Shown piece after piece: positions 4,332-30,312 of a DNA stretch of 33,061 nt (positions are counted from its first letter, which is position 1; each line of letters begins with the position of its first letter). Source of the DNA: a virus. The stretch covers positions 1 through 33,061 of the IMG/VR virus record IMGVR_UViG_3300028423_000418; one strand, given 5' to 3'. The notes under the pieces were generated by a model. The model was not told the origin of the DNA. It saw only the letters and a program-made list of their open reading frames with translations, and did no database searches. Both the position numbers and the translations under genes were made by a program.

Positions 4332-6650
4332 CTATCCAATCTCTGCACCTCGAATATCACCACGACTGATAAATGTCACGTTTGATACGCCTTGGATTGC
4401 TGGGCCTGCGGCACCTCCGGATGATACTGGCTTAAGGCTTGTTTGCCCATCACCACCGCTTTGCCCTAGGCCACCGCCAATGCCGCCCCGCGCATACGCT
4501 GAGCCATAGTTCGAGTTGCCGCCATCTCCCCCAGCAAGCAAGCTGCCTTGACTGCCGCTTCGCTCTAATAAATTTCCGCTACCGGATAAATCGGCGCTGC
4601 CGCCGTCAGCATAAGACGCCCCGCCGCCGCCACCTGCGGCAAGAGCATACGTCTGACCAAGGACTCTAAGGTCAAAAGTAGCACCGCCGCCACCGCCGCC
4701 ACCGCCGCCAATTATCCCGTTATTGTCGATACTGATAGATGAGGGAGATAGCAAAGCCAGCCCGCCATTGCCGCCATCGTAAGCGTATGCGTTAAAAACA
4801 TCGCTATAAGAGCCACCCCCAGCGCCACCACGTCCAGCGATAACAGCACCGGACAGTACGGACAATTTAAGTGACACCCCACTAGGCCAGCCGGTGCCGG
4901 TGTCAAACGCGGGGGCGCTTGTTGTTTCGCTTGTGACGATTACGTTTTCACGCACTTCACAGATAACTGTGTCGCCGTCCTCAGCCTCGGAAAAGATATT
5001 TAGGTAAGCCTCACGCAAGTTAACATTCGTCGCGTCTGCACTAATCACCACCCGCTTAACATCTGGCGGCTCTGGCGGTGTACCGCCGTCGTCTACGCCG
5101 TTGATGACGACTTCCTCAGCTTTAACGCCTACACCCACGTCGCTGACTTTTACCTCGATAGCCTGACATGGACTGGTTACCGGTGCGCCTGTAGGGTCTT
5201 GATTGAAGAATGATTGCAACTGCAAACCACTACCAAGGGGAGGCAAAGGGGTGCCACTATCCCGCAACAGGTTAAACTCAAACATCCGTGGCGGCTCAGC
5301 GAATCGTGACAGCACCAGCGTGTTTAATCGCTCTGCCGCGCTCAATGCAAACTGTGTCATCCATCGGCTATACACTTTCTTAACCGCTGGCTCCCCCCAG
5401 TTTAGTTCGCTGGCTTGGTTTACCGTCAGTAGTGTATTACGGTAGTTTTTTGGGTCGTCCTGTGATTCGAGCGGATTAATCTGCCCGTAGTACGTCCACA
5501 CCTGAGAAACGCGCTTGTCTGGCTGCTCCCGCTGTTTAAAGCTACCCGCCAGCATGAAATCATCGTTATAGACAAAACTGCCTTTTGTCACGTTACGCAG
5601 CACTTGGAGCTGTAGCGTTTCGCCTATTTCATCCCACCAGATAGAAAGTGCCGCTTGTTCGAGTAACTCATTAATCAGGTCAATAACGGGCGTTGGCTCT
5701 GCGATTACGCCACTATATCGACGGCCTAGAAACTGGTTTAACTCTGCCGTCCAGTTGGGCATATTAATAAATTCGGCTGGCACCTGTGCGTAATTAGTGA
5801 GCAGGTCAAACAGTACGTTTTCCGGCTCCTGTGATGAATACTCCAGCACCCATTGCACGCGGTCGCCCTCGTCGTGCTCTTTGATTTCAGTGTTATTGAT
5901 GCCTCGCGAAATCGTAAACGTGTCACCGCTGCGCGTATAGCTGACAATCTCGTTACCACCAATGGCAACTTTGCCGCTTGTTGGGTAATCCGCGCCAACA
6001 CCCGCTGGTGATACTATAAAGCTGGTAGCTGTCTCGCTTAGCGCGCTACCCAGCACGCCACGGCTTAGCTTTGGTGCCTGTGCGCGCTTGCTCTCGGTTA
6101 ACGTTAGCGGGTCTTTGGCTTTAATCATAAACTGCCCGCGCGTGTTTGGCCCTTCGGCGCTGTCAATGATATACGTGCGCCGCTCCATTTGTTCGAGCGA
6201 TTGACCTACGCGCCCGTTATACCAACGTAATTTATTGCCGCGCATGTACGGATGGCGCGCACGCAATTTACCCCAGAACGTGCCGCGCTCGAATGGGTCA
6301 TAGTTACGTTGGCCTAGGTAGGGGTCGCCACCCGCGCCCGTGTCCGGCGATGGATGGTCAGTGGCGGTGATTTTAAGGCTTGCGCGTGTACCAATGGATT
6401 CGCCTAGCTTAACAATTGATGGCGTGTAACTGCTATCCGCGACATTCTCGACGGCATCAATGCCGCCAGGATTATGCATAGACGGTTTACCAAGCCGCAA
6501 CACTTGCGTCGTGGGCGAGTACGCCTCAATGGCCTGGCATGTTTTGCGCGTGTTAAAGCACGGCTCACCCGTGGCGGGGCATAACCCCTCTCCATGGGTA
6601 AGCTCGCATACTTCTAAGTCAATCTCGTAATAGCTTAATCGTTGCGTCAC
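4332..6650 (-). CDS. Tail hub/tip protein with C-terminal polyglycine adhesin-like domain
   Basis: This 772-residue protein begins with a Cys-containing module (ELTHGEGLCPATGEPCFNTR, then KTCQA) typical of central tail hub proteins in phages lacking a lambda-type J. Residues up to about 520 are hub-like, with clear beta-rich segments. From about residue 590 the composition changes sharply to Gly-rich repeats, including nine consecutive Gly near 4682-4709, and ends in NVTFISRGDIRGAEIG. Such Gly-rich ends form polyglycine-II sandwiches in adhesins such as T-even-type gp38 and occur on tail-tip proteins. I infer a dual role: closing the tail tube and binding the host surface. It overlaps the distal tail gene by four bases. 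Confidence 0.77.
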   Translation of the reverse strand: MTQRLSYYEIDLEVCELTHGEGLCPATGEPCFNTRKTCQAIEAYSPTTQVLRLGKPSMHNPGGIDAVENVADSSYTPSIVKLGESIGTRASLKITATDHPSPDTGAGGDPYLGQRNYDPFERGTFWGKLRARHPYMRGNKLRWYNGRVGQSLEQMERRTYIIDSAEGPNTRGQFMIKAKDPLTLTESKRAQAPKLSRGVLGSALSETATSFIVSPAGVGADYPTSGKVAIGGNEIVSYTRSGDTFTISRGINNTEIKEHDEGDRVQWVLEYSSQEPENVLFDLLTNYAQVPAEFINMPNWTAELNQFLGRRYSGVIAEPTPVIDLINELLEQAALSIWWDEIGETLQLQVLRNVTKGSFVYNDDFMLAGSFKQREQPDKRVSQVWTYYGQINPLESQDDPKNYRNTLLTVNQASELNWGEPAVKKVYSRWMTQFALSAAERLNTLVLSRFAEPPRMFEFNLLRDSGTPLPPLGSGLQLQSFFNQDPTGAPVTSPCQAIEVKVSDVGVGVKAEEVVINGVDDGGTPPEPPDVKRVVISADATNVNLREAYLNIFSEAEDGDTVICEVRENVIVTSETTSAPAFDTGTGWPSGVSLKLSVLSGAVIAGRGGAGGGSYSDVFNAYAYDGGNGGLALLSPSSISIDNNGIIGGGGGGGGGATFDLRVLGQTYALAAGGGGGASYADGGSADLSGSGNLLERSGSQGSLLAGGDGGNSNYGSAYARGGIGGGLGQSGGDGQTSLKPVSSGGAAGPAIQGVSNVTFISRGDIRGAEIG

Positions 6651-17421: not shown

Positions 17422-17609
17422 AAGGCCTCCAATAATTCTTCTACCTGCTCTTTGCTTAGTAGGCGCAATGCTTCGACTAGTAACTCGCTAAAAATCTCGC
17501 CAACAGCAGGACATTCAACTTCGTAACCCTCAAGGATAGCAATAAGGCATAAAACCTGGTGTTCGCTAAACTCAACAATCTCTGATTCGTGTTTCATTAC
17601 TTTACTCAT
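17418..17609 (-). CDS. Acidic helical hypothetical protein (63 aa)
   Basis: The likely start is ATG 17609 (MSKVMKHESEIVEF), overlapping the end of the helix-turn-helix gene. The rest is mostly acidic helix (GEIFSELLVEALRLLSKE). No family recognised. It belongs to the accessory cassette driven from the promoter at 18123-18151. Confidence 0.55.
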   Translation of the reverse strand: MSKVMKHESEIVEFSEHQVLCLIAILEGYEVECPAVGEIFSELLVEALRLLSKEQVEELLEAL

Positions 17610-17799
17610 GATCACCACCAAATGCTTCTTTATTAACCTGAGCCGCAGCCAAATTGCCCATTATGCGCATAACTAACGCGCTTGGCTGGCTCTCCCCGCT
17701 ACGCCATCGACAAACAGTGCGCTGGGTCACTTCAAAATGCTCAGCGACTTCTCGGTTGTTCATCCTGGCGGCGTCTTGTAGTTGTTTGAATTCGGTCAT
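17602..17799 (-). CDS. Small helix-turn-helix DNA-binding protein (65 aa)
   Basis: Residues about 14-40 form a clear helix-turn-helix (NNREVAEHFEVTQRTVCRWR followed by SGESQPS) of the Cro/C1-like or small phage regulator type. It is coupled to the preceding gene by ATGA. It could control the accessory cassette promoter or the divergent control region at 25.1-25.5 kb; its target cannot be read from sequence. Confidence 0.75.
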   Translation of the reverse strand: MTEFKQLQDAARMNNREVAEHFEVTQRTVCRWRSGESQPSALVMRIMGNLAAAQVNKEAFGGDHE

Positions 17800-18196: not shown

Positions 18197-18975
18197 TTTC
18201 GACTGTAGGCCACCACGCATCGGCAGTTTATCACATTGCGGGCACTCGCGGACGGGTCGCCAGGGTGCTGCATCTCCTCACCATCAACGATAAACGGCTG
18301 GTCGATAGGCACCGTTTGTTCATCTGCGTCACTGTGCCATGCGCGCGTACGCTCTCCACGACTAGCCACCCACTCCTTGACCATAGGAACGCCGCTAGTC
18401 TTGGCGGCGCTATGGTTGGCGGTTGCCTGAGCGTTATGCGTCTCTGTGCGTGCAATAAGACGACCACGGCGCGTGCTTAGTGCATCACTGGCTGATTTCA
18501 TGCGCTCGCGTATGAGCTTACCTAGCGCGGCCTGACCCAAACCCTCACGCGCACCCTCAGCGACGGAATCATTGATAATTTCCATCGCCTGCTTTTTGGT
18601 AGTGCCGGTGATTTGCGTTACTTTTTGCGAGCCATACTGTGCAATGAATTGCTGCAAGTAGAGTTGAAACAGGTCGGTTTCTTCGTCCTGTTTGGTCTCC
18701 ATGCCGCGTACGCTCTTTTGTGTCGCGTTAAGAACGCGCTCACCAAACACCGACCACGCCTGCCGCCAGTTTTTGATGATGATTCGCTTGATGTTTTGAC
18801 CATGCTCCGCGATTATTTCGGCCTGCTTGCCTGGTGAGTCTGGATGCTTGGCGAGTTGACGCATAGCCCGCCTAATTTCACGGGCTAGCGTTAGCTCATA
18901 CTGTCGAGCAATGCGCAGGCTTTGTCGCTCCTGCCATTGCTGCTCACGTTGCGGGGATAAGCCGGTGATGCTCAT
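18190..18975 (-). CDS. Minor head protein, SPP1 gp7 / Mu F-like head morphogenesis
   Basis: The C-terminal ~100 residues carry the family signature: RLIARTETHNAQATANHSAA, then VKEWVASRGERTRAWHSDAD, a region with QPFIVDGEEMQHPGDP, and NVINCRCVV. Members associate with the portal and a few copies enter the head. The N-terminal part is helical and basic. At 261 residues it is shorter than many relatives. The gene overlaps the methyltransferase stop by one base. Confidence 0.9.
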   Translation of the reverse strand: MSITGLSPQREQQWQERQSLRIARQYELTLAREIRRAMRQLAKHPDSPGKQAEIIAEHGQNIKRIIIKNWRQAWSVFGERVLNATQKSVRGMETKQDEETDLFQLYLQQFIAQYGSQKVTQITGTTKKQAMEIINDSVAEGAREGLGQAALGKLIRERMKSASDALSTRRGRLIARTETHNAQATANHSAAKTSGVPMVKEWVASRGERTRAWHSDADEQTVPIDQPFIVDGEEMQHPGDPSASARNVINCRCVVAYSRKR

Positions 18976-19937
18976 TAACCCATACCGCTAAATATGTGAG
19001 CGATAACATCCACTGTCCACCCATTACCTAACATCTTATAACGTTGGGTGTTGCTGACGTGCGCAGTGTAATCATCCGGCACTGTTTGGAGCCGCTCGCA
19101 TTCGATAGGGGTTAGTTTTCGGCATCCTAACTCGTCAATCAGTTTGGGCATATGACTAGTCGTTAGAGCGTAGCTTTTCTTTCCATCTGTAAAAATCATC
19201 CTCCCTAATTCGCTAATCCCGCTTTTTCTCTTATCGCCACGATGCGGTCTAATACCATTTTCGTTTATTGAGACGTCAACGCATCGAGGGTTTATCTTTG
19301 ATAACTTAAAGACCAACTGTCGCCGATGCTTCTCGAAATAACTTTTAAGATTTCCGCCTTTGAAGTAATTAGCGTCAATACACCAAGACTTATCGCGGTC
19401 AACTACTCCGCTTTCAATGATATCAGCGAGAGCCACACCCTTATCCTCTGGCTGCTCAAACTCCCAATTCGCCCAGTAGTAACGCTGGCGGTTTTGAGCT
19501 GACACTAGTGCGCTATTAATGAAAACAGGCTCGACACCTAAATACTCGCTGATGATATCCAGGTTTTCGCGCTTCATCTTGACGTTTTCAAGCATAAATT
19601 TCACATCAGGATTAGCCGAGCGAATGTGGTTTAGAATATCCACGTAAACAAAAAACAGCTTGCTGCGCGGGTCATCAAATGCGAGCTGCTTACCTGCAAA
19701 GCTAAAACCTTGGCATGGACTGCCGCCAATCAGTAAATCAATCGACGCCCAGTCTATATCCCATTCTTTCCATTTTGTGACGTCGCCAAGCTGAATTGTG
19801 TCAGGGTAGTTAGCCTGGGTTACTGTGATGGCGTATTTGTCCAACTCGCTAGAGTAATAGTTAGTGACATCAACACCTACTCTCTCTAGTGCAATTTGCC
19901 CGCAACTCATGCCGTCGAAAAGACTTAATACATTCAT
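18975..19937 (-). CDS. DNA (cytosine-5) methyltransferase, orphan
   Basis: Starting at MNVLSLFDGMSCG, the protein shows the C5-methyltransferase motifs in order: SAM-binding motif I (LFDGMSCGQIAL), GGSPCQGFSFAG with catalytic C75, LENVKM (E117), AQNRQRYYW (Q148, R150, R152) and the terminal YKMLGNGWTVDVI. It transfers a methyl group from S-adenosylmethionine to C5 of cytosine. No partner endonuclease gene is nearby, so protection against host restriction is the likely role. It is inserted between portal and minor head genes, which is unusual. Target specificity cannot be read from the sequence. Confidence 0.93.
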   Translation of the reverse strand: MNVLSLFDGMSCGQIALERVGVDVTNYYSSELDKYAITVTQANYPDTIQLGDVTKWKEWDIDWASIDLLIGGSPCQGFSFAGKQLAFDDPRSKLFFVYVDILNHIRSANPDVKFMLENVKMKRENLDIISEYLGVEPVFINSALVSAQNRQRYYWANWEFEQPEDKGVALADIIESGVVDRDKSWCIDANYFKGGNLKSYFEKHRRQLVFKLSKINPRCVDVSINENGIRPHRGDKRKSGISELGRMIFTDGKKSYALTTSHMPKLIDELGCRKLTPIECERLQTVPDDYTAHVSNTQRYKMLGNGWTVDVIAHIFSGMG

Positions 19938-19938
19938 A

Positions 19939-20028
19939 CTATTCACCGTTATAGTTATCACCGATTTCAGAAAGGAATGGCAGGCTGTCGGTGTTCAGCT
20001 TTTCGGGCGCTACCCTAGCCACTGTCAT
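19939..20028 (-). CDS. Possible 29-residue peptide between portal and methyltransferase
   Basis: An open frame (MTVARVAPEKLNTDSLPFLS, then EIGDNYNGE) fills the gap between the portal stop and the methyltransferase start, ending two bases before the latter's ATG. The ribosome-binding site is weak. It may be a real leader or coupling peptide, a remnant, or chance. Confidence 0.3.
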   Translation of the reverse strand: MTVARVAPEKLNTDSLPFLSEIGDNYNGE

Positions 20029-24580: not shown

Positions 24581-24714
24581 TTCACTTTCTCCAATTGATA
24601 AATCTCGCTTAAATCGCCACTCACAGGCCACCACAGCCCATCACGATACACAAACCACCACTTGCCCCGCTTACATGCCAATCGCCCGTCAGGGAGTTTG
24701 TGAGTGGCTTTCAT
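24577..24714 (-). CDS. Small hypothetical protein, Trp-rich (45 aa)
   Basis: The ATG at 24714 overlaps the upstream stop (ATGA) and the TGA overlaps the next start. The peptide starts MKATHKLPDGRLACKRGKWW and continues 'FVYRDGLWWPVSGDLSEI', like a small beta domain. Coupling at both ends supports it. Confidence 0.55.
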   Translation of the reverse strand: MKATHKLPDGRLACKRGKWWFVYRDGLWWPVSGDLSEIYQLEKVK

Positions 24715-25097
24715 ACCCAAGCACTCCCCAAAATCTCGTTGTACTTACGAATGCGCGGACACACCACGGGGTTACCCAGGTTTGCGCGCTCCTTTTTCAT
24801 TAACTTCATTTTAACCAAACGCTTTTTGACGAACTCAACCGACACGCCTTTCTTTGGTGCCATCACCTGCAAGCTCATTGCGCCATAGTGCGATTTAAAA
24901 AACTCGTCATATTCCGCCATAACGTCTTTTGCGGATTTATATCCCCGCGTCTCACAGTAGTTCTTAAACCGGTTCATTTCTAGGCCCAACTCTTGAGCGA
25001 TGACCGGGCGCGTTACACACTCTAATGTGCGCTTGATGATGTAGTCCCGGTACTGGTCATACTCGTGCGGGGTGCTAGTGATTTTTTTACTTGCCAT
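24711..25097 (-). CDS. Possible DNA-binding protein, first gene of the leftward operon (128 aa)
   Basis: An ACGGAGCAAC site precedes the ATG. Two helix-turn-helix-like stretches are visible (PVIAQELGLEMNRFKNYCE; KGVSVEFVKKRLVKMKLMK), both rich in basic residues. As the first gene next to the repeat-rich divergent control region, it is a candidate regulator acting there. That role is inferred from position and composition. Confidence 0.55.
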   Translation of the reverse strand: MASKKITSTPHEYDQYRDYIIKRTLECVTRPVIAQELGLEMNRFKNYCETRGYKSAKDVMAEYDEFFKSHYGAMSLQVMAPKKGVSVEFVKKRLVKMKLMKKERANLGNPVVCPRIRKYNEILGSAWV

Positions 25098-25164: not shown

Positions 25165-25360
25165 CAACCAGGGCGTAAAAAACCAAAATTCGGCAACGCT
25201 GAAAACTTTCCAGTCCCATTGTCCCACTCAGTCCCACTTAGTCCCAACTGACCAATCTCGCATAAGCACTTGTTTTGCATTATTTTTTATTCGCAAAAAT
25301 ACCGATTTGGGACTGAGGGACTGGGACTGAGTCACTTTCCTAACTTATTAAACTATTACG

Positions 25361-25371
25361 CGTGGTATAAT
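25361..25371 (+). promoter_or_regulatory. Extended -10 promoter for the rightward replication operon
   Basis: A perfect TATAAT (25366-25371) is preceded by TG plus one base. There is no good -35 at 17 bases, but extended -10 promoters do not need one. The transcript would begin with a leader containing the CTA repeats and two GTCCC boxes. Confidence 0.6.
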
Positions 25372-25396
25372 ACTTTCCTATATCTACTATATACCT

Positions 25397-25414
25397 CTAC
25401 TACTACTACTACTA
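25397..25414 (+). repeat. CTA trinucleotide repeat, six units
   Basis: Six perfect CTA units lie in the leader between the extended -10 promoter and the first replication gene. Such a tract can vary in length by slippage, but nothing here shows that it does. Confidence 0.8.
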
Positions 25415-25502
25415 AAAGATAGTCCCTTAGTCATCGTCCCAACAACCCCGAACATACGGTTTATGGGTAAATAAAAACACTGTATCATTATATATAAATG
25501 GC

Positions 25503-25531
25503 TTGACTAGGTATTTACTGGCTAGTATTGT
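25503..25531 (+). promoter_or_regulatory. Second rightward promoter close to the first replication gene
   Basis: TTGACT (25503-25508) and TATTGT (25526-25531) are 17 bases apart, 32 bases before the ATG. The GTCCCA copy at 25539-25544 would overlap the transcription start, a position suited to repression. Confidence 0.55.
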
Positions 25532-25562
25532 TTAGCAAGTCCCAACAACGGAGGAAGCAAAA

Positions 25563-26051
25563 ATGAAAAAACCAAAACCAACCGGTTACAATGACGCACG
25601 CATGGCGCCCATCAGCACTGGCGACGTGCTCACTTTCGATGTTAAAAACGAGCACCCGCTAGACGGTTACTGGCTGGTTATCGAGCAGGGCGGCTTGATT
25701 GCAATAGAGCAAGAGGGCGTACTTCACCCTTTGGGGGTTTTTGATTTCGGTCAAGAGCTAACGAGCGTGCCAGCCACTATCGAAGGCAACGCTTACACGG
25801 ATAACGGCCTGTTTCTCATGATGGCTGATTACTCGCACGAACTACTAAAAAGCCAGGGCGTAACTCAGCGCCGTAGTAAGTGGCCTTTTTCATCCCTACC
25901 CATCGGCGACTCGCTAAAAATACACGCCAGCGATACAGATAAAAACCTAAAAGATTTGCGCGCTTATGTGCATGTATTGGCAAGCAAAAGCGGGAAGAAG
26001 TTTGCGACAAGCATTAATAACGGCTTTTTGCACGTCGAAAGGGTGAAATAA
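25563..26051 (+). CDS. Hypothetical protein, first gene of replication operon (162 aa)
   Basis: GGAGG lies nine bases before the ATG. The N-terminal ~110 residues are unrecognised and beta-rich. The C-terminal ~55 residues (WPFSSLPIGDSLKI, then a helix, GKKFATSINNGFLHVERVK) follow the 'PF--L-vGDS ... GkkF ... vwRv' pattern of small DUF7303-like phage domains. Two bases separate it from the primase gene. An early role in replication control is possible from its place. Confidence 0.65.
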   Translation: MKKPKPTGYNDARMAPISTGDVLTFDVKNEHPLDGYWLVIEQGGLIAIEQEGVLHPLGVFDFGQELTSVPATIEGNAYTDNGLFLMMADYSHELLKSQGVTQRRSKWPFSSLPIGDSLKIHASDTDKNLKDLRAYVHVLASKSGKKFATSINNGFLHVERVK

Positions 26052-26052
26052 T

Positions 26053-27039
26053 ATGCTTTTCTTTGATGATTTCCTTAACTTTGCCGATGATAACGGCGTG
26101 GGCGTGGCCTTTCCCGACAAAATAAAAGGCACTGGCGATATTGAGCGGTTTACCGTTAAGGGCGACAAAAAAGGCAGCCTTAACGGCTGGCTTATCTGGC
26201 GCGACGAATTAAAGCCTAGTTGCACGTTTGGCAGTTGGAAAACAGGACAGCAAGTGACATGGTTCGCGGAGTCAGAAGAAAATATCAGCGACAAAGAAAA
26301 AAAAGAGCGCAAGCGAAAGATTGCCGAGGCACGCGCGAAAGCAAAACGCGCACGACGTGAAGAGCAAGAGCGTGAGCGCATACAAGCCAGCCAACAGGCG
26401 TTATCTATGTGGGAAAACGGCATTGATGACGCTAAAACGCTAGAAAGTCACGGTTACGTTAAAGCAAAACAGATAAAGCCTTATTTTTCTAAACTTGATG
26501 AAGAAACTGGCGCGTTAATTGTGCCAATGCTTAATCATCGTGGCGAACTAGCAAGCGCGCAAAGAATTTACCCCAACGGCAAGAAGTTGTTTTTGCCTGG
26601 CGGTCAGGTTTCTGGCACCTTGTTAACCCTTGATGGTGGTAGTGATGATATGGTTTTTATCTGTGAAGGGTACTCTACCGGCTGCACTGTTAGACAGATT
26701 ACCGGCTGCACCACACTGATAAGCTGGAATGCTGGCAACCTGCAATTCTTGGCGCAGTATGCCGCCGCAAAGTACCCGAAAAGCAAAATTTTTATCTGCG
26801 CCGATAACGACCATCAAACATACATCAACGGCGTCAAAACCAATGTGGGAGAAGCCAAGGCGATAGAGGCCGCTAAACTTGCCGGAAGCCAAGCGGACGT
26901 GAGCGTGCTATTCTACGGCACCGAACAACACGGCACCGACTGGAACGACTACGCCTGTATTCGTGGCATGGAAGAGGCTAAGGCATGGTTTGATTTTCGA
27001 CTAAAAGCAGCAATAAACGGGGAGCCTGAATATGTCTAA
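26053..27039 (+). CDS. TOPRIM-domain DNA primase
   Basis: After an N-terminal region with GSLNGWLIWRDE-type strands and a long charged helix (residues about 78-115), the protein has a TOPRIM domain: acidic E205 in CEGYSTG and D251/D253 in CADNDHQ, then GTDWNDYA at 295-301. TOPRIM primases make RNA primers on the lagging strand. There is no N-terminal CHC2 zinc finger, as in phages where zinc-finger and catalytic parts are reduced. The gene overlaps the next by eight bases, and the two probably work as a primase-helicase pair. Confidence 0.85.
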   Translation: MLFFDDFLNFADDNGVGVAFPDKIKGTGDIERFTVKGDKKGSLNGWLIWRDELKPSCTFGSWKTGQQVTWFAESEENISDKEKKERKRKIAEARAKAKRARREEQERERIQASQQALSMWENGIDDAKTLESHGYVKAKQIKPYFSKLDEETGALIVPMLNHRGELASAQRIYPNGKKLFLPGGQVSGTLLTLDGGSDDMVFICEGYSTGCTVRQITGCTTLISWNAGNLQFLAQYAAAKYPKSKIFICADNDHQTYINGVKTNVGEAKAIEAAKLAGSQADVSVLFYGTEQHGTDWNDYACIRGMEEAKAWFDFRLKAAINGEPEYV

Positions 27040-28339
27040 TAACGCACAAGAGCTAAGGCCCATTCAGACAGACACAGTGCCATTCACAGAAGAGTTAGAC
27101 CCAGCAGAATTTCCCAAAGTAAGCATGAACTCTATGGGCGCGATAAAGCTGAACGGCTCTATCGAAAACCTGCGCCACTTACTGAAACGCTACGGCATTA
27201 CATGCCGGTACAACATGATTACCCGTGAAGAGGAAATCTACGTACCAGGTAAGCGATTTACCAAAGACAACGCCGCAAACTGCTCTGTGCAGCAAGTAAT
27301 AAACCTGTGTATCAATAACAACTTGCCTCGCGCTGACGTGCTGGGCCACCTAAAACTGATTGCGGACGAGAACGCATACAATCCGGTTATCGACTGGATA
27401 ACATCAAAGGAGTGGGACGGCACCGACCGAATCAGTCAGGTTGTTGAGTCTATCCACGTACCAGACACGTTTGAAGAGATAAAAAAAATCTATATGCGCA
27501 AATGGTTCATGTGTGCCGTGGGTATGCTTTACAACGGCATGGATGACGTCGAGCTTGAGTATGAGGGGGTTTTAGTCCTTCAAGGCAAGCAGGGGCTAGG
27601 CAAAACGCGATGGTTTAAAAGCCTAATACCGGACCATCTTGGCAATATGGTAATTGACGGATTCGAGCTAGACCTTAACAACAAAGACAGCCGGTTAACG
27701 TTTGCGAGTCATTGGCTGGTGGAGTTAGGCGAACTTGATAGCACCTTTAAGAAATCAGAAGTTAGCGCGCTAAAAGCATTTATCACGATGAAAAAAGACA
27801 AGATTCGACGCCCTTACGACCGCGTAGACACGACACTTTTTCGTCGCACGACCATGTTTGCATCGGTAAACGATGAGCAGTTTTTGCATGACAGCACTGG
27901 CAACCGTCGTTTCTGGTGCCTATCAGTTGATGCCATTGATGTGGTCGATGATTTAGACGTGCAACAACTATGGGCGCAAGCGCACGCAGAACCGTGGTTT
28001 GTTGTAGGCGAAGAAGCAAAACTTCGTGATAAGGTTAATGCTGGGTTTTCTGTCACTGACCCTATCGAGGAATCAATCGGCTCGACGTTTGACTATGAAT
28101 CGTCTTCTTTAATGTATCGCGCACCTAGTACATCTATCGCAAAATACGCGGGCACGCACAACCCAAATAGAGGCCACATCATGGCAGCCAAGCGAGCGGC
28201 GTTAGCGTTTGGCGGTGAGGAAATTAAGAGTGGAAGCCGTCGATATGTCACAGTGCCACAGCCAGTCCATCTTGACCGCGTGAGGATGCGAGAGCTTGGA
28301 TTTCAGGAATGGATTAGCGGCAAGTGGGTTACGGTATAA
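27032..28339 (+). CDS. VirE-family (SF3-like) replicative ATPase/helicase
   Basis: The C-terminal part carries Walker A GKQGLGKT (185-192), Walker B LVELGELD (229-236), the LKAFIT--KDKIRRPY segment and TGNRRFW (289-295), all signatures of the virulence-associated E family. These are hexameric AAA+-type replication helicases of phages and mobile elements, often fused to a primase; here the TOPRIM primase is the overlapping upstream gene. The N-terminal 150 residues include the common 'YNPVIDWITSKEWDGTDRI' lead-in. Confidence 0.92.
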   Translation: MSNNAQELRPIQTDTVPFTEELDPAEFPKVSMNSMGAIKLNGSIENLRHLLKRYGITCRYNMITREEEIYVPGKRFTKDNAANCSVQQVINLCINNNLPRADVLGHLKLIADENAYNPVIDWITSKEWDGTDRISQVVESIHVPDTFEEIKKIYMRKWFMCAVGMLYNGMDDVELEYEGVLVLQGKQGLGKTRWFKSLIPDHLGNMVIDGFELDLNNKDSRLTFASHWLVELGELDSTFKKSEVSALKAFITMKKDKIRRPYDRVDTTLFRRTTMFASVNDEQFLHDSTGNRRFWCLSVDAIDVVDDLDVQQLWAQAHAEPWFVVGEEAKLRDKVNAGFSVTDPIEESIGSTFDYESSSLMYRAPSTSIAKYAGTHNPNRGHIMAAKRAALAFGGEEIKSGSRRYVTVPQPVHLDRVRMRELGFQEWISGKWVTV

Positions 28340-28389
28340 AAAAAGGCGACCATAAAGGCCGCCAAATCATGCAACAACGGAGAATTGTC

Positions 28390-30312
28390 ATGACTAATAT
28401 TAACGATGTACTGACTGATAGTCAAATCGCAGCAAAGCGTAAAGAGATAAACGATCCATTTTGGTTGCCGGATTTCGAGCTGACCACGTACGGCAAGATG
28501 ACAGACCGACCTTACCAGGAATTCGCTATTCGCTCTATCATCGAACACGTAAAGGCCACACGCGACCCGGCTATCGTTTCTGCAAGTGTCGGTGCTGGTA
28601 AAACATTGATAGCGGCATTCCTTGCGCGTCATGTGTCAGACCGCAAAGGCCGCGTTCTTGTTCTATCCCGCCAGGGTGAAATCATCCAGCAGGACGCAGA
28701 TGATGCGTGGCTGTCCAACTGCAAGAACTCGATTTATAGCGCGTCACTGGGCGTAAAATCCACAACCTACCCCGTTATTTTTGGCACTGAGGGTACAGTC
28801 TGGAAGGCGTTAGAAACCGATTTGCAATACTGGGGCGATATACAGAGCGATAAACAGCCGTCAGAGCCGAGCAAACTGCATGATAAGGCGTTTGACTTGC
28901 TTATGATTGATGAAGCGCACCACGTTGATTTTGAGGCGTCAGACAGCCAATACATGAAAATAATCAGCGAGCTTTTACGTCGCAATCCTAAAATGCGCAT
29001 CATTGGTTTGACTGGAACGCCTTATCGTGGTGTTACACCAATCATCGGCGAGGCGGACGGCTATTTCTGGCGCAAGCAGTTGTGCGATATCAGCACCGAA
29101 TATCTAACCAATATGGGGTATCTATCACCAATTCAGTGGGGGTTCTCACATGATGATGTGGGTTATGACCTGAGCGAGTTTAAAAGCGACGGGCAGGACG
29201 GCACGCAAGACTACACCGCCGAGCAATTGCGCCAGATGGAAAAGAAAATGCTCGAAGCGGAAACCACCACGCAAAAAATCATGATAGAAATTGCCGAAAA
29301 GACACGCGACCGTAACTGCGTACTGATTACATGCGCAGGCAAGAAGCACTGCAAAGAAGCGGCTAAGTTTTTGCCCGATGGCACATATAAAATCATCACC
29401 GATGACATGGCGGCACGAACGCGGCGCAAAGCACTTAAAGACGCTTACGACGGTAAAATAAAATACCTGTTACAGATAGGTTGCCTGACAACCGGCGTTA
29501 ATATCCCGTTAATTGATACCGTCGTAATATTGCGAAAAATTGGAAGCTTGACTCTGCTCACTCAACTTATCGGGCGCGGCTTGCGACTTCTAAAGCCAGA
29601 GCAAATAGAATCTGGGTATCGCAAAGAAAACGCGCTTGTGCTGGACTATTCCGACACACTCAACGAGCTGAAAGATTTGTACGATTCGCCAATCTTAGAC
29701 GAGGCTGATTTCTCCAAAGCCCAAGAAAGCGGCGACCTTATCACCTGCCCTAAATGCGAAACTGAGAACAGCTTTCACGCGGTTCGTTGTCGCGGTGTCA
29801 ATAGTGGCGGTGAGCGTTGCGATTTTTTCTGGAAGTCTCGAATTTGTGAAGACTTTTACGTTAACGGCAAGGTAAAAACAGAGGGTTGTGGAGCTGAAAA
29901 CGCGCCTACAGCCAGGCAATGCCGAATCTGCGAGAACACGCTCATTGATCCCAACGCCAATCTGAGCAAGAAGCACTACACGGCGAACGATTATAAGCCG
30001 GTTGAGCGTTTTGATATGCGCCCGACAAAAAACAACGGCGTTATTGTGGAGTATCACTTACCAAACGGCGAGACAGCCAAGGCGTTTTATTCGCCATTTA
30101 GTGACAACCAGATTGCCAAGCGTATTTTCTATAACCAATTCACCAAGCGCCACGCAACCACGCGCGCACTAAAAGGACTGGTGCGCGCTGCAAGAAACGC
30201 TGGCGAGCTGTGCGGACTGCGTGACCAGCTAGATACCGTCGAGGCAATCACGCACCGCACCAATGATAAGGGTGAGTCAGTAATCAGCAAAGTAATTAAC
30301 CGTAATAGTTGA
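28390..30312 (+). CDS. DEAH-type superfamily 2 helicase with C-terminal zinc-binding region
   Basis: I choose ATG 28390 (MTNINDVLTDSQIAAKR), seven bases after GGAG; the frame is open further upstream but lacks a site. Helicase motifs are SVGAGKT (66-72), IDEAHH (173-178), LTGTPYRG (207-214) and IGRGLRLL near residue 400. The C-terminal third has CPKCETEN and later paired cysteines (GCGAENAPTARQCRIC), which suggests zinc ribbons. Related phage helicases unwind DNA during replication or branch processing. The gene has a Q-motif-like PYQEFAI at 41-47. Confidence 0.92.
   Translation: MTNINDVLTDSQIAAKRKEINDPFWLPDFELTTYGKMTDRPYQEFAIRSIIEHVKATRDPAIVSASVGAGKTLIAAFLARHVSDRKGRVLVLSRQGEIIQQDADDAWLSNCKNSIYSASLGVKSTTYPVIFGTEGTVWKALETDLQYWGDIQSDKQPSEPSKLHDKAFDLLMIDEAHHVDFEASDSQYMKIISELLRRNPKMRIIGLTGTPYRGVTPIIGEADGYFWRKQLCDISTEYLTNMGYLSPIQWGFSHDDVGYDLSEFKSDGQDGTQDYTAEQLRQMEKKMLEAETTTQKIMIEIAEKTRDRNCVLITCAGKKHCKEAAKFLPDGTYKIITDDMAARTRRKALKDAYDGKIKYLLQIGCLTTGVNIPLIDTVVILRKIGSLTLLTQLIGRGLRLLKPEQIESGYRKENALVLDYSDTLNELKDLYDSPILDEADFSKAQESGDLITCPKCETENSFHAVRCRGVNSGGERCDFFWKSRICEDFYVNGKVKTEGCGAENAPTARQCRICENTLIDPNANLSKKHYTANDYKPVERFDMRPTKNNGVIVEYHLPNGETAKAFYSPFSDNQIAKRIFYNQFTKRHATTRALKGLVRAARNAGELCGLRDQLDTVEAITHRTNDKGESVISKVINRNS

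Follow-up and report, generated by a model that had tools for sequence, protein, structure and literature searches.

The window, that is, the whole stretch of DNA analysed here, is a virus record of 33,061 nt in which two operons diverge from a non-coding intergenic region. The rightward genes encode, in this order, a 162-aa protein, a Toprim primase, a VapE/SF3 helicase, a DEAD helicase, an exonuclease VIII-like protein and SSB. The leftward genes, situated to the left of the region, encode a 128-aa protein, followed by the terminase, portal, Mu F-like and protease proteins. Because terminase, portal, protease and head genes are present, the element is of the complete tailed-phage type and is not a satellite. 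The portal gene is separated from the Mu F-like head gene by a cytosine-C5 DNA methylase gene (18975-19961, minus strand). No nucleotide matches to the window were found in annotated phages, and searches with the 128-aa protein and with the helicase sequence alone returned no close relatives.

The intergenic region carries an accumulation of the hexamer GTCCCA (Table 1). The window contains 18 copies of this word, eight of which fall within the 332 nt between 25213 and 25544, about 1% of its length, and these eight boxes occur in both orientations. There are in addition two near-boxes, GTCCCT. The sequence-only reading of this DNA had described four direct copies at a spacing of 8-10 bases and an exact mirror of 11 bp. 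Both descriptions were verified. The direct copies follow each other at distances of 8, 10 and 10, and ACTCAGTCCCA (25226-25236) and TGGGACTGAGT (25322-25332) are perfectly complementary over 11 bp. The inverted pair is 14 apart, so that the term "helically phased", used earlier for the arrangement, is a loose one for spacings of 8, 10, 10 and 14. The clustering of GTCCCA is far above chance. Shuffled windows had at most six copies of any hexamer per 332-350 nt, and mostly four or five; when the intergenic region was shuffled 5000 times, GTCCCA reached a maximum of 3 copies, with a mean of 0.16. The window has one other hexamer cluster that is similarly dense, formed by GCCGCC/CCGCCA repeats at 4408-4641, apparently inside a long leftward reading frame (4332-6650).

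Table 1. Boxes, candidate melting segments and flanking genes of the intergenic region
Feature	Position	Strand	Remarks
Small protein, 128 aa, first gene of leftward operon	24711-25097	-	No conservation in relatives
Left box set, direct	25213-25246	+	GTCCCA at 25213, 25221, 25231, 25241
Spacer, 61 bp, 67% AT	25247-25307		Separates direct from inverted set
Inverted box set	25308-25327	-	GTCCCA at 25308, 25322; GTCCCT at 25316 in between
Candidate unwinding element	25340-25425		Least stable 60-mer in all 33 kb begins at 25365
Right box pair	25422-25441	+	GTCCCT at 25422, GTCCCA at 25436
Second-easiest-melting segment	25460-25535		60-mer at 25468; weak promoter match 25503-25531 inside
Last GTCCCA box	25539-25544	+	Directly precedes the ribosome-binding site of 25563-26051; may serve in autoregulation
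Small protein, 162 aa, first gene of rightward operon	25563-26051	+	No conservation in relatives
Toprim primase, "pri" half of split pri-rep pair	26053-27039	+	
VapE/SF3 helicase, candidate origin-binding initiator ("rep")	27032-28339	+	Predicted C-terminal winged helix at about residues 361-409
DEAD/DEAH helicase	28324-30312	+	Overlaps helicase stop; 69% identical to that of L002

The ease of melting was calculated from nearest-neighbour stability for 60-mers over the entire window. The two least stable 60-mers are flanked by the inverted boxes on one side and the right-hand boxes on the other. The AT-rich core had been placed at 25262-25303 from the letters of the sequence. That segment is indeed AT-rich, as is the whole spacer when compared with the window mean of 50% AT, but its ease of melting is merely within the top 5% or so. 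The earlier claim that further boxes stand in the leaders of two rightward promoters held for the boxes, at 25436 and 25539, but two promoters are not established, because a sigma-70 search found a single weak match, no more than in shuffles. The cumulative GC skew of the window turns at 25657, so that the change of skew suggested as a check is present. However, this is where the direction of the genes switches, and no turn was found at the box clusters of Pseudomonas phage Haddon, Stenotrophomonas phage S1 and phage PS3. The skew was therefore discounted as evidence for an origin.

The VapE/SF3 helicase matches SaPI PriRep1 in sequence (E 2e-18). Its structural comparison with PriRep1 bound to dsDNA (7pds) gave a Z score of 23.4 with 378 residues aligned, the C-terminus included. 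An AlphaFold2 model, made with close relatives in the alignment, predicts a C-terminal wHTH with a pLDDT of about 90 and the order strand-helix-helix-wing. The C-terminus belongs to the ep3/Mica-like subgroup, but its recognition-helix sequence is its own. In SaPI Rep the iterons are recognized by the C-terminal domain (PMC7581432). The helicase of the window probably reads the box in the same manner, with its C-terminal winged helix, as judged from the architecture and by analogy.

The proteins suggested earlier as binders of this DNA are not favoured. The 128-aa and 162-aa proteins are unlikely to be general binders because neither has a relative in any of 355 loci, and a motif search with the C-terminal domain of the 162-aa protein matched the window alone. 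The third suggested binder is a short protein encoded among the head genes (17602-17799); its match to an HTH is weak, and no link between this protein and the cluster DNA was found. A small DNA-binding protein shared among the loci was also considered as the reader of the box; an all-against-all comparison of the neighbours yielded none.

A search for GTCCCA finds nothing but GTCCCA. For this reason 80 viral loci were gathered by their helicase alone and searched for any hexamer clustered in both orientations, and for the same reason an anagram control was used for the GTCCCA searches. Clusters of at least six copies in two orientations were present in 24 of 74 segments of 600 nt that directly follow the helicase stop, several of these loci being near-duplicates and not all independent, compared with 15 of 870 segments elsewhere (1.7%). 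The boxes of the helicase relatives differ by lineage and include AGGGTA, AGGGAC, CTGTCA, GGTTAC, GGTGTA, TGACCA and others. GTCCCA is not among these boxes of the protein-chosen set, and none of the nearest relatives of the window helicase has it as its box. Among annotated phages, SFCi1, 1N2-2, PS3, ep3, Mica and Persinger have a similar architecture with other box words. A sample of 190 genomes of one bacterial class gave three matches to VapE, too small a number to be of use.

GTCCCA itself recurs widely. A pattern of three GTCCCA boxes was found in at least 120 viral stretches, many of them with inverted halves. The strict palindromic pattern, GTCCCANNNGTCCCAN(75-104)TGGGACNNNTGGGAC, occurs in 72 viral stretches, as against one for the anagram control, and also in 71 contigs of bacterial genomes, the carriers including Actinomycetota, Alphaproteobacteria, Desulfovibrio, Limosilactobacillus and others. 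At about 80% of the loci (57/72 viral, 58/71 bacterial), the pattern has a replicative helicase or primase within 1.5 kb. VapE is the commonest neighbour in viruses and DUF3631 in Actinomycetota; DUF5906, DUF927, AAA_25 and Prim-Pol are also found. In this TGTCCCA palindrome group the helicase gene most often ends right at the cluster, and the inner spacer, with a median length of 92 and a median AT content of 39%, is hence not AT-rich.

The pattern specific to the window (AGTCCCA, 10-bp steps) led to AGTCCCA clusters in three other phages, which contain no relatives of the window proteins; an AGTCCCA cluster in another phage record (L195, 12066-12520) has at least 11 boxes. A single viral contig, IMGVR_UViG_3300021958_011313, carries up to three palindromic GTCCCA clusters (L158, 1738-1855; L177, 5601-5718 and 11027-11145). 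In one group of related phages (L003, 3170-3399; L011, 2240-2463; L014, 3071-3252), the core cluster is accompanied by extra ordered arrays of GTCCCA (> 20 < 11 < 26, repeated). In the chromosomes of Nonomuraea, Kribbella, Saccharothrix and other actinomycetes (L198-L268), the exact TGTCCCA palindrome adjoins DUF3631, Prim-Pol and integrase genes, which suggests integrative elements with the same origin box. No publication describing a GTCCCA box was found in a limited literature search.

Different types of box go with different recognition-helix and winged-helix sequences of the helicase. The VapE proteins adjoining TGTCCCA have in common the winged-helix motif KWTxxEQxRVG, which is absent from the VapE proteins adjoining most other boxes and from the window helicase. 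A profile of the C-terminus containing this motif found no match in the window; it matched weakly in Marinobacter phage PS3, the box of which is GGGTGAC. In phage S1 another word, CCGCACA, is arranged like the boxes of the TGTCCCA group, in 9-bp steps with a gap of 91 bp.

A change of box and initiator can be followed at one locus, L002, which has the DEAD helicase, an exonuclease, a 193-aa protein and SSB in common with the window. At the equivalent place its initiator is a DUF3987 helicase instead of the VapE/SF3 helicase, and inverted TTCGTCA boxes take the place of GTCCCA in its divergent intergenic region. The clusters of 7-, 8- and 9-mers in that region exceed those in all of 100 shuffles. 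From a comparison of the two sequences, the initiator and the box appear to have been replaced together. Conservation of the repeats in relatives with the same flanking genes had been proposed as a test of the origin. The box is not kept in such relatives because it changes together with the initiator, as in L002.

These observations bear on other explanations of the cluster. A phage repressor or early regulator, for instance the 128-aa or 162-aa neighbour, could use the boxes as multiple operators for switching the divergent operons, with replication starting elsewhere. The position of the boxes in a divergent intergenic region, two of them in the leader of the rightward operon, agrees with this. 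It is nevertheless unlikely, as the left set overlaps no recognizable leftward promoter, the small neighbouring proteins lack conservation, and the architecture recurs mostly just downstream of a helicase gene, where divergent promoters are unneeded.

The occurrence of one box with unrelated helicase families in many phyla would be explained if GTCCCA were read by a DNA-binding protein encoded by the host, and GTCCCA palindromes do accompany VapE, DUF5906, DUF927, AAA_25, DUF3631 and other initiators. Such a reader is very improbable, given that close relatives of one helicase use many other boxes and that the winged-helix sequence varies with the box. Multi-copy short boxes can also be centromeres, and ParB-like genes are found in some of the helicase relatives (Mica, Mano). 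However, the clusters track replicative helicase and primase genes of several families, and there is no partition gene among the window proteins scanned, so that a partition, centromere-like or other structural site with ParB/Noc-like boxes, in place of an origin, is hardly to be expected here. An oriC-like origin with DnaA boxes was rejected, the four matches in the window being at chance level and none of them lying in the region.

The segment 25213-25544 is likely to be the replication origin of the phage, of the PICI/SaPI type and read by the VapE/SF3 helicase. The candidate origin proposed in the sequence-only reading is thus supported, by the box clusters adjoining equivalent helicase genes and by the recurrence of GTCCCA near replicative helicases. 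In the mechanism envisaged, the helicase would bind the boxes via its C-terminal winged helix as two oppositely facing hexamers, melt the adjacent AT-rich DNA (about 25340-25420) and load itself. The helicase and the Toprim primase would then start bidirectional theta replication. At the leader boxes, 25436 and 25539, the initiator may repress its own operon as a feedback. The alternative role of master operator, which had been suggested for the region, may be an additional role of these two boxes. Against the origin reading stand the position of the cluster 5' of the pri-rep operon, in contrast to the 3' side of rep in most relatives and all PICIs; the window helicase, which lacks KWTxxEQxRVG and none of the nearest relatives of which has GTCCCA boxes; and the spacing of 8, 10, 10 and 14, where the TGTCCCA group keeps to 9 bp. 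Because the spacing and the helicase features of that group are not found in the window, the GTCCCA that it has in common with the TGTCCCA phages may be due to convergence.

A wider proposal can be put forward only tentatively and is rather doubtful: that GTCCCA is a recurrent origin box of self-loading initiators which belong to six or more helicase families and occur in the phages and integrative elements of many bacterial phyla, the box having come to be shared through repeated convergence or through swaps of winged-helix domains. The inverted-iteron origin would then be general to a large class of phages, the box and the initiator being exchanged as a module. The origins of most phages are unmapped, and the inverted-iteron origin has been stated to be unique to PICIs; if the proposal is true, it is the general origin of this large class. 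The way in which the box and the winged helix of the helicase vary together is a natural data set from which a recognition code could be derived. This variation may also have been shaped by nucleases directed at origins, such as Odn (PMC8263062).

Several other origins, known or putative, resemble the cluster in part. The putative origins with TGTCCCA palindromes in other phages and prophages have the same hexamer in two orientations with a replicative helicase adjacent. They differ in their regular 9-bp steps and core of about 92 bp (39% AT median), compared with steps of 8, 10, 10 and 14 and a gap of 61 in the window, and in being located 3' of a gene for a helicase with the KWTxxEQxRVG motif, which the window helicase lacks. 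The alpha protein of phage P4, with ori/crr, combines Toprim primase and SF3 helicase functions and uses short origin boxes. The window too has both functions with short boxes at the candidate origin, but its pri and rep are split, whereas the P4 protein is fused. The P4 iteron, GGTGAACA, has no exact copy in the window; copies with one mismatch are at chance level and none lies in the region. Cch2 of SCCmec, an initiator helicase that loads itself, recognizes short repeats, the AAGTG iterons, through its C-terminal domain (PMC7581432), and the same is proposed by analogy for the window. Cch2 belongs to another helicase subgroup, and its origin, with three direct iterons, is downstream of the operon.

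The closest likeness is to the SaPI/PICI origins. The origin of PICIs directly follows rep on its 3' side, with an AT-rich region between its two sets of iterons, and pri-rep-ori is capable of autonomous replication (PMC6092414). The window likewise has short iterons in two oppositely oriented sets with easily melted DNA adjacent, the best melting segment being located not in the first spacer but farther right, where the inverted set and the right-hand boxes enclose it. It also has separate primase and helicase genes, the helicase being homologous to PriRep1 (7pds). As in SaPI/PICI, rep is an SF3/AAA+ helicase with a C-terminal dsDNA-binding domain, which in the window is predicted from homology and the model. 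The differences are that the window box is AGTCCCA, that there are extra boxes in the operon leader, that the cluster lies 5' of the operon, and that PICIs are satellites without structural genes, in contrast to the tailed phage of the window with its terminase, portal, protease and head genes. In the window an origin would not fit on the 3' side of rep, since the DEAD/DEAH helicase gene (28324) overlaps the rep stop. Although it does not have the position 3' of rep and the element is not a PICI, the candidate origin of the window is probably of the PICI type in the way it works.
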